From contig JALUXI010000236.1 of NCBI GenBank assembly GCA_027019045.1, forward strand, positions 1 through 36,038: a DNA stretch of 36,038 bases, given 5' to 3'. A program made the translations under genes and the position numbers. Shown here in pieces: positions 17,069 to 35,140 of the stretch. Below the pieces are notes generated by a model. That model saw only the letters and a list, made by a program, of their open reading frames with translations, made no database searches and was not told the origin of the DNA. Numbering within the stretch: the stretch's first letter is position 1; every line of letters begins with the position of its first letter. This stretch comes from Piscirickettsiaceae bacterium. Its GTDB lineage: Bacteria > Pseudomonadota > Gammaproteobacteria > Thiomicrospirales > Thiomicrospiraceae.

Positions 17069-17656
17069 TTATTGCATCACAAAGCGATCAAAATAGACAC
17101 CTTCTAGAAGGTCTGGGTAAATATGGTGCTCTTTTAAAACCTCTTTAGCGACCTTTAACACACGCTTACGAAGCACCTCTTGCCCATCATCCTTATTCAA
17201 CTCACTAAAGCGTTGCTTACGCAATAGCTCCGTAATCTTATCTCGCAAAATCGGACGCAGATGTTCCATATCACCATGCTCACCAACAAGCTGAGGATAA
17301 TAAGACATAAACTTCAATGTCACCGCAAGGTATTTTGCCTGACCCTCTCCTTTAAAATTCACCACAAAAGGCTTCATTTCAAAGTATTCAGGTTCAGCAT
17401 CTTCTTTAGGAGGTTCATATTGTTTAAACTTGGGAGAATAGTGCTTAGCATGCTCATTCTCGCCCTCTCCACCTTGATCTGCAGAAGCTTCAGCTACCGC
17501 TTTTTCTCCACCTTTTTCATCATGCTTACCTTGACTAAGCATTAAAAATGCCATGACCCCCATTCCAATCATCATTAAGACAACAAGAACAATCAGAACG
17601 ATAATCAGGCCTTTACCTCCACCACTGCTTTTCTTTTCTTCAACTTCTTCTGACAT
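17069..17656 (-). CDS. fliL: Flagellar basal body protein FliL
   Basis: N-terminal TM after SSGGGKGLI; YFEMKPFVVNFKGEGQAKYLAVTLKFM; C-terminal GVYFDRFVMQ. Confidence 0.92.
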   Translation of the reverse strand: MSEEVEEKKSSGGGKGLIIVLIVLVVLMMIGMGVMAFLMLSQGKHDEKGGEKAVAEASADQGGEGENEHAKHYSPKFKQYEPPKEDAEPEYFEMKPFVVNFKGEGQAKYLAVTLKFMSYYPQLVGEHGDMEHLRPILRDKITELLRKQRFSELNKDDGQEVLRKRVLKVAKEVLKEHHIYPDLLEGVYFDRFVMQ

Positions 17657-17726
17657 TGTTAGCTCCTTTTCAAATTAAATGCCCGTATATTCTAATGATG
17701 TGCGGCAGGTTTTGCCATCTCTTTCT

Positions 17727-17901
17727 CTAGGGAAGCGCTGATTAACTCGCTTGAGCTTCTGCGGGACTTTAAGGGTGCAAATTCTAGACGGGCTTTGCAG
17801 GCAATGGCTAGCCCTTATCAAAAAGCCCAACAACGAAGTTGTACCCTTAAAGCCCCGCCCGAAGGGGGCTAAGCCAAGCCAGTTAATCAGCGCTTCCCTA
17901 G
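17727..17901. mobile_element. IS5-like MITE inserted at the motB 3' end
   Basis: TIRs GGAAGCGCTGATTAACT (17731-17747) and AGTTAATCAGCGCTTCC (17881-17897), flanked by CTAG on both sides (17727-17730, 17898-17901). Inner near-perfect inverted repeat 17762-17780 / 17839-17857. No ORF of its own. Confidence 0.85.
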
Positions 17902-18756
17902 TTGTTCTACCGTCGGCGCCTCACTCAAACTCTTCAAGCGTTTTTCTGCTTCTTGGTTCAGAACAATGATACTGATTCGCCTATTTCTCGGGTTATAAGG
18001 GTTTTCCTTATCAAAAGGTACCGTATCTGCTAATCCCACCACTTGAGCAATCTTTTTCGGATTGACGCCACCTTTAATCAACAATCTTCTCGCCGCATTC
18101 GCACGATCAGCCGAGAGCTCCCAGTTCGTATAATCAGGACTATTTCGATAGCCTGATGAATCAGTATGCCCCGCAATACTAATACGATTATTCGTATTTC
18201 TAAGGATCTTACCCACTTCTTTCAAGAGCTTAGCAGCATAATCTTTTGGCAAATCTACTCCCGCTTCAAACATTGGGCGCTTACGGTCATCCAGCACTTG
18301 AATCTGCAAACCATTTGGGGTCACATCAATTTTTAATTGATCTTTTAGTTTCCTTAAAGAAGGCGAACTATTTATTTTCTGTTCAAGTTGCTGTTTTAAG
18401 CTAATCATCTCTTGCTTTTCTTTCTCTTTCGCACCATCTTGAACCCCCTCTTTCATGCCATTCCCTTTAGGTGAAGACTTAAAGCCCCCCATATCAATCA
18501 CGGCATCATTGGGACGACCTGCACTTTTCGATTGAATCAGCACCTGCGGCGAGCCTTCAATCACCGTCGGATTACGGAAATATTCCGCCATCGCCTTCAT
18601 CTCTTCGTCATTTTCACCACCCAATACCCAAAGCATCAAGAAAAAGGCCATCGCAGCCGTCATAAAGTCAGCAAACGCCACCTTCCATGCCCCTCCGTGT
18701 GCACAGTGTGGGCACTTCGCAATGCGTTTTATGATTATGGACTGTTCATCACTCAT
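17887..18756 (-). CDS. motB: Flagellar stator protein MotB; C-terminus altered by MITE
   Basis: GGAWKVAFADFMTAAMAFFLMLWVLGG; OmpA-like ISIAGHTDSSGYRN...ELSADRANAARRLL...NRRISIIVL. The last codons (GG GAA... region) and stop lie in the MITE terminal repeat. Confidence 0.95.
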   Translation of the reverse strand: MSDEQSIIIKRIAKCPHCAHGGAWKVAFADFMTAAMAFFLMLWVLGGENDEEMKAMAEYFRNPTVIEGSPQVLIQSKSAGRPNDAVIDMGGFKSSPKGNGMKEGVQDGAKEKEKQEMISLKQQLEQKINSSPSLRKLKDQLKIDVTPNGLQIQVLDDRKRPMFEAGVDLPKDYAAKLLKEVGKILRNTNNRISIAGHTDSSGYRNSPDYTNWELSADRANAARRLLIKGGVNPKKIAQVVGLADTVPFDKENPYNPRNRRISIIVLNQEAEKRLKSLSEAPTVEQLGKR

Positions 18757-34800: not shown

Positions 34801-34884
34801 GAGAGCTTTGCATGAGTGGGACGCAAGAGAAAAAGGGGAATTTTAGCCTTTTTTATCCGTGTAGCCATCTCATGCAAAGCTCTC
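34801..34884. mobile_element. MITE copy A (84 bp)
   Basis: Perfect 16-bp TIRs GAGAGCTTTGCATGAG / CTCATGCAAAGCTCTC, flanked by TAAAC on both sides (34796-34800, 34885-34889). Confidence 0.85.
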
Positions 34885-34980: not shown

Positions 34981-35140
34981 GAGAGATTTGCACGAGTGGG
35001 ACGCGAGAGAAAAAAGAGATAAAATTACTCGAATCGAGGCTGAAAACACAGGGAATAGCCCGCTATTGCCAAGTTTGTCAACGAAGAGTCGGGGAATTTT
35101 AGCCTTTTTTATCCGTGTAACCATCTCGTGCAAAGCTCTC
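34981..35140. mobile_element. MITE copy B (160 bp), related to copy A
   Basis: TIRs GAGAGATTTGCACGAG / CTCGTGCAAAGCTCTC (one mismatch), flanks TATAT / TATAC. Shares GAGTGGGACGC.GAGAGAAAAA and GGGGAATTTTAGCCTTTTTTATCCGTGTA.CCATCTC.TGCAAAGCTCTC with copy A. Confidence 0.85.

Follow-up and report, generated by a model that had tools for sequence, protein, structure and literature searches.

Insertion of a MITE at the 3' end of motB

The window, a stretch of 36,038 nucleotides from a Piscirickettsiaceae bacterium, carries motB on its reverse strand with fliL and motA as neighbors according to Pfam. A 167-bp element is located at the 3' end of motB (17731–17897, plus strand). As an earlier sequence-only reading of this DNA had described, its terminal inverted repeats are identical at 17 of 17 positions and it is enclosed by CTAG duplications; complementarity extends to 22 of the 23 outer positions. 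The features of the locus are listed below, where R1 denotes a covariance model of one hairpin arm (arm 1) together with an adjoining mini-hairpin.

17069–17656, minus strand: fliL, the next gene downstream of motB
17692–17730, minus strand: stranded former 3' end of motB, coding for the lost tail EKEMAKPAAHH and a TAG stop
17727–17730: target duplication CTAG, first copy
17731–17897, plus strand: MITE, a 167-bp derivative, without arm 2, of a 260–262-bp full-length form
17731–17747, plus strand: left terminal inverted repeat, GGAAGCGCTGATTAACT
17756–17871, plus strand: conserved hairpin arm 1 and mini-hairpin, matching R1 at 111.7 bits, with sister copies of the same genome among the sequences from which R1 was built
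17881–17897, minus strand: right terminal inverted repeat, matching the left one at 17 of 17 positions
17887–18756, minus strand: motB as now read, 289 aa, with a TGA stop within the element and MotB_plug and OmpA domains
17898–17901: target duplication CTAG, second copy

Because the inverted end reads GGAAGCGCTGA in the motB frame, translation now stops after GKR instead of continuing into an 11-residue tail. The present C-terminus is ...TVEQLGKR*, and the TGA falls within the element end. The sequence-only reading had proposed that the element supplies the stop codon, that GKR replaced the last 11 residues, and that excision would give a longer MotB. When we removed the element and one CTAG in silico, we indeed obtained a 297-aa MotB ending in ...TVEQLEKEMAKPAAHH*, in frame and terminating 35 nt ahead of the fliL ATG, and the joined flanks restored the tail EKEMAKPAAHH. 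Relatives were expected to have an uninterrupted tail without the element, and this is what we found in two surveys covering partly the same species, with 27 and 35 loci, respectively (about 60 loci). The nearest named relatives by MotB are Thiomicrorhabdus, Hydrogenovibrio, Sulfurivirga, and Thiomicrospira. In the relatives, the next open reading frame starts 13–85 nt past the motB stop and looks FliL-like from its first residues, except in one distant locus (L070). None of the 27 + 35 loci has a gap after motB like the 230 nt in the window, and a search for the same spacer in relatives, or for a MotB natively ending in QLGKR, gave neither.

Within the 289-aa protein, the MotB_plug domain spans residues 11–63 and the OmpA domain residues 173–257. 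The loss of 11 residues was probably tolerated, since the relatives differ in both the length and the sequence of the tail that follows the OmpA domain, and the insertion, being placed in this tail, may have been nearly neutral. The end of the element reads TGA or TAA in two of the three frames, so an insertion near the end of a gene leaves a short and clean tail. A possible second case of an element-supplied stop was noticed at L006 (G000:C11), where an open reading frame (771–1398) ends inside the end of another copy. Taken alone, the motB insertion matters little, being a neat natural example of a stop codon provided by the end of a MITE.

The insertion also altered the spacer upstream of fliL, which is 230 nt long with the element versus 35 nt after its removal in silico. 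The sequence-only reading had called the spacer highly structured, and the predicted folding energy of the transcribed strand is −103.5 kcal/mol compared with −57.1 kcal/mol for shuffled sequences (z −11.6). A search of the transcribed strand of the spacer detected no intrinsic terminator, and there are two weak promoter-like matches, one of them within the element. An effect of the insertion on fliL expression is conceivable.

Copies in the host genome and the IS5-type ends

The sequence-only reading had suggested a BLAST of the 167 bp for genomic copies. A blastn search of the element against its own draft genome (1.87 Mb, 293 contigs, 85% complete) returned about 12 further copies with E-values down to 5e-59, about 13 in all (family A), so the element in motB is not a chance arrangement. 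We examined 11 complete copies, of which seven are 260–262 bp and four, the motB copy included, are 167–182 bp. An exact 4-bp duplication of the YTAR type (CTAG, TTAA, or CTAA) flanks nine of the 11. A second hairpin arm, present in the full-length copies, is absent from the motB copy, which is a deletion derivative of the 260–262-bp form. In the full-length copies, the stretch missing from the motB copy is flanked by AAGCCAA direct repeats at the base of arm 2. Because these repeats bound the missing stretch, we infer that arm 2 was lost by slippage between them, either before or after the insertion. Two solitary family A ends, with no partner in the examined stretch, were seen at L022 (G000:C37:12085–12101) and L035 (G000:C219:498–514), and at L008 and L026 (G000:C39:19077–19358) a full-length element is followed directly by another end copy (GGAAGAGCTGATTAAGT).

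The element is non-coding and, at 167 bp (260–262 bp in its full-length sisters), lies within the bound of about 500 bp for MITEs. It has terminal inverted repeats with a target duplication (17/17 ends, CTAG on both sides) and about 13 dispersed copies, and about 60 loci of relatives show the motB tail without an interruption. The other genomic copies, the YTAR duplications, and the uninterrupted tails bear out the proposed MITE insertion, and it is well supported that the event at motB was an ordinary one of this kind, in which a non-autonomous element with IS5-like ends evidently inserted at CTAG in the last codons of the gene.

The IS5 group is marked by ends starting with GGAA and by YTAR targets. 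Both features hold across the family A copies, so this part of the IS5 assignment made from the sequence alone stands; a parental transposase, in contrast, was not found, as the host assembly (85% complete, 293 contigs) gave no PF01609 match over the cut-off and no PF13586 match. An IS5 parent for the motB element is inferred from these ends and targets, and the element may have been moved in trans by an IS5-type transposase that is absent from the assembly. In other genomes, no two ends at the distance expected of a full insertion sequence were evident among the places listed.

A covarying core shared across the class

The core of the element extends far beyond its host. With an E-value of up to 1e-5, R1 found matches in 75 genomes and 60 genera out of a class sample of 369 genomes and 271 genera; with an E-value of up to 1e-6, it matched 39 of 399 sampled genomes of the phylum, some of which lie outside the class. 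E-values reached down to 6e-20 outside the family. The elements of relatives share this layout, with a length of about 260 bp and an identity of about 67–70%. The core of the motB element belongs to a broad, class-wide family of structured repeats. Neither this nor the origin of the motB copy by deletion could be seen by the sequence-only reading. Plasmid records gave no match for two queries and phage records none for one query. A scan of viral contigs for the core motifs gave 18 stretches, and since only one of the 18 matched R1, the family does not look phage-borne.

We inspected 29 class-wide loci and aligned 29 elements. The layout is that of inverted ends, a closing stem, arm 1, the mini-hairpin (CCCGAAGGG and variants), arm 2, the closing stem, and inverted ends, with the two arms in inverted orientation around the mini-hairpin. 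The arm-1 model also scores arm 2 on the opposite strand (76 and 68 bits in L183, for example), which gives the element a two-fold pseudo-symmetry. Two-sided compensatory change was found in 53 of 90 consensus pairs among 18 copies and in 91 of 100 pairs among the 29 elements. In the 29-element alignment, 90.7% of the cells are paired, two-sided cells number 939 compared with 296 in shuffles, and the covariation score is 0.793 versus 0.210 when shuffled and at most 0.156 when partners are slid by 1–3 columns; the fold was predicted on the same alignment as was counted, which favors the fold, but the slid and shuffled controls are far lower. Compensatory change thus maintains the core in many families of the class. 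In contrast to the variable stems, the motifs CAAGGCG, AATGG, CCTTGCCAAG, and GCAACRCCG in loops and internal loops are nearly constant.

Strand-related signals were also recorded. In paired columns, G-T combinations outnumber A-C ones (264 to 48 and 128 to 26), and folding was better on the arm's own strand for 84 of 101 arm-1 reads and for 41 of 49 arm-2 reads, both measures leaning toward the model because the matches came from one that allows G-U pairs. When two-arm elements are taken whole, their strands do not differ significantly (p 0.25, n = 24). Between co-directional genes, 23 elements lie in sense and 17 in antisense orientation, which, on crude ORF calls, is no marked preference.

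Dissimilar terminal repeats on the same core

The two-arm core is joined, in the same layout, to several dissimilar terminal repeats. In the relatives, some elements have IS5-like ends and some have the quite different end GGGCACCTCGAATAACCC. A rough motif sort of 93 elements with detectable inverted ends, in which some classes may intergrade, gave 30 of the GGAA type, 35 of the TA-GT type, three of the GGGCACC type, and 25 others, the last including GGGTCTGTT and ATTAACCCGG. For the GGAA type, a 4-bp duplication is indicated by L009, L172, and L182, where CTAA, which is not a palindrome, is present on both sides. For the TA-GT type, a duplication of TA fits, for example, the unequal flanks TTAG and CTAG of L183. 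Read from this diversity, the core may have changed its ends over time to match the available transposases. What makes the finding interesting is this family, with its class-wide covarying fold and the several dissimilar ends to which that fold is attached.

Possible role of the core

Taken as a whole, the account of a MITE with IS5-like ends in motB, whose covarying core would be selfish and would have exchanged ends, seems very probable to us. The core would be a module of selfish DNA that acts at the level of DNA or single strands and not as an RNA regulator of its neighbors. We favor such a role in its own spread because the sense of the arms lies on opposite strands, whole elements show no significant strand difference, and the elements have no clear orientation preference. 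As to how this would work, we tentatively propose a conserved single-strand hairpin module of many gammaproteobacterial MITEs, whose recognition by a shared factor of the host or of replication would aid the spread of these elements and which would persist for long times by swapping terminal repeats to suit the transposases at hand.

The strong covariation, the tolerance of G-U over A-C, the better folding of each arm on one strand, and the very stable predicted motB–fliL transcript would also suit a structured non-coding RNA gene or a cis-regulatory RNA spread by transposition, such as an RNase-processed spacer or attenuator in operons. We find an RNA of this kind doubtful, since the opposite sense of the arms means that both never appear in one transcript, the strands of whole two-arm elements do not differ significantly, orientation relative to genes shows no clear preference, and no Rfam family scored above its gathering score in the window or in the loci searched. 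Compensatory change could instead be a mutational by-product without selected function, as palindromes can in principle gain such changes by templated mutation without selection on structure, and the elements are long quasi-palindromes that readily lose arms, with forms of 167–182 bp in the host genome and other short forms elsewhere. Hairpin-templated correction alone would not, however, yield unpaired and internal-loop motifs that stay nearly constant amid variable stems, and we hold this account to be unlikely. That the element is an ordinary lineage-specific MITE derived from IS5, with the class-wide matches being hairpins of convergent origin that a permissive covariance model had collected, agrees with the IS5-type ends and YTAR duplications in the host genome; it is very hard to reconcile with matches down to 6e-20 outside the family that share the unpaired motifs and a layout of about 265 bp and that are mostly centered between inverted-repeat ends, a feature absent from the model. 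The model was also selective among the 18 viral stretches with a core motif string, matching just one, and we regard convergence as highly improbable.

Such a core would bear on how MITEs are seen. They are usually viewed as relics of one insertion sequence that die along with it, and a core that compensatory change maintains across many bacterial families while its ends differ would imply that non-autonomous DNA can survive after its transposases are gone. A selected fold would give a testable reason for the persistence of the element.

Relation to described elements

REPINs are paired hairpins in inverted orientation that are dispersed and non-autonomous, as are the elements described here, but they are shorter and tied to RAYT transposases. 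Unlike REPINs, the present elements have inverted ends with target duplications. With IS5-group MITEs, the motB family shares a short non-coding sequence, inverted ends starting with GGAA, a 4-bp YTAR duplication, multiple copies, and insertion at gene ends; it differs in that the parental transposase was not found and the core is common to elements with dissimilar ends. Correia, ERIC, Chunjie, and other bacterial MITEs, each described for one or a few lineages in the available text of PMC10969869, are likewise palindromic and intergenic with terminal repeats and target duplications and can alter gene ends or transcripts, whereas here one covarying core is present in many families with several end types. 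The Coxiella elements QMITE1 and QMITE2 are MITEs that likewise come from Gammaproteobacteria, fold stably, and occur in truncated forms; in the part of PMC5896051 available to us, QMITE1 is described as 300–400 bp with an IHF site and QMITE2 as 150–190 bp with 7–11-nt duplications, features that differ from those of the motB family. A class-wide core is not described in the available portions of PMC10969869 or PMC5896051.

No Rfam family reached its gathering score in the window, and nothing appeared at an E-value of up to 1 in five loci. In eight further loci, two matches below the gathering score both overlap the element: MIR8788 (L186 1406–1512, 29.3 bits against a gathering score of 124, E 0.25) and M23 RNA (L197 1609–1656, 28.8 bits against 41.2, E 0.065). 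We did not adopt either as the family identity and regard both as fortuitous hits on a long hairpin. In the open-access literature, the end and core strings tried had no text match, which is weak evidence of novelty, and nothing linked MITEs with Thiomicrospira. Provisionally, the structured hairpin family is apparently undescribed.

A probable one-arm relative in the same genome

The window contains two copies of another repeat, family B, both of which sit between fliD and flaG.

34801–34884, plus strand: family B copy, internally deleted, 84 bp, with the duplication TAAAC
34981–35140, plus strand: family B copy, 160 bp, with the terminal repeat GAGAG[AC]TTTGCACGAG

Family B has about 40 copies in the host genome at 87–94% identity. 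Nearly all full copies examined are 160 bp, with the ends GAGAGCTTTGCACGAGATGG. An exact 5-bp duplication (TAAAC, TTCTT, or AATTA, for example) flanks 10 of the 21 copies examined, and the remaining ones have a shorter duplication or no exact one. Two end types coexist in this genome, that of the two-arm family and that of family B. Family B has a single arm with motifs resembling those of the two-arm core. R1 matches its core weakly at 35014–35107 in the window (27 bits, E 4e-4) and scores 43 and 35 bits on the copies in L005 and L006, respectively. These shared motifs and modest R1 scores suggest that the arm of family B is homologous to the two-arm core. In other genomes, apparent one-arm elements lie beside two-arm copies, as at L172 168–254 and L183 1978–2065, with R1 scores of 33.6 and 50 bits, respectively.
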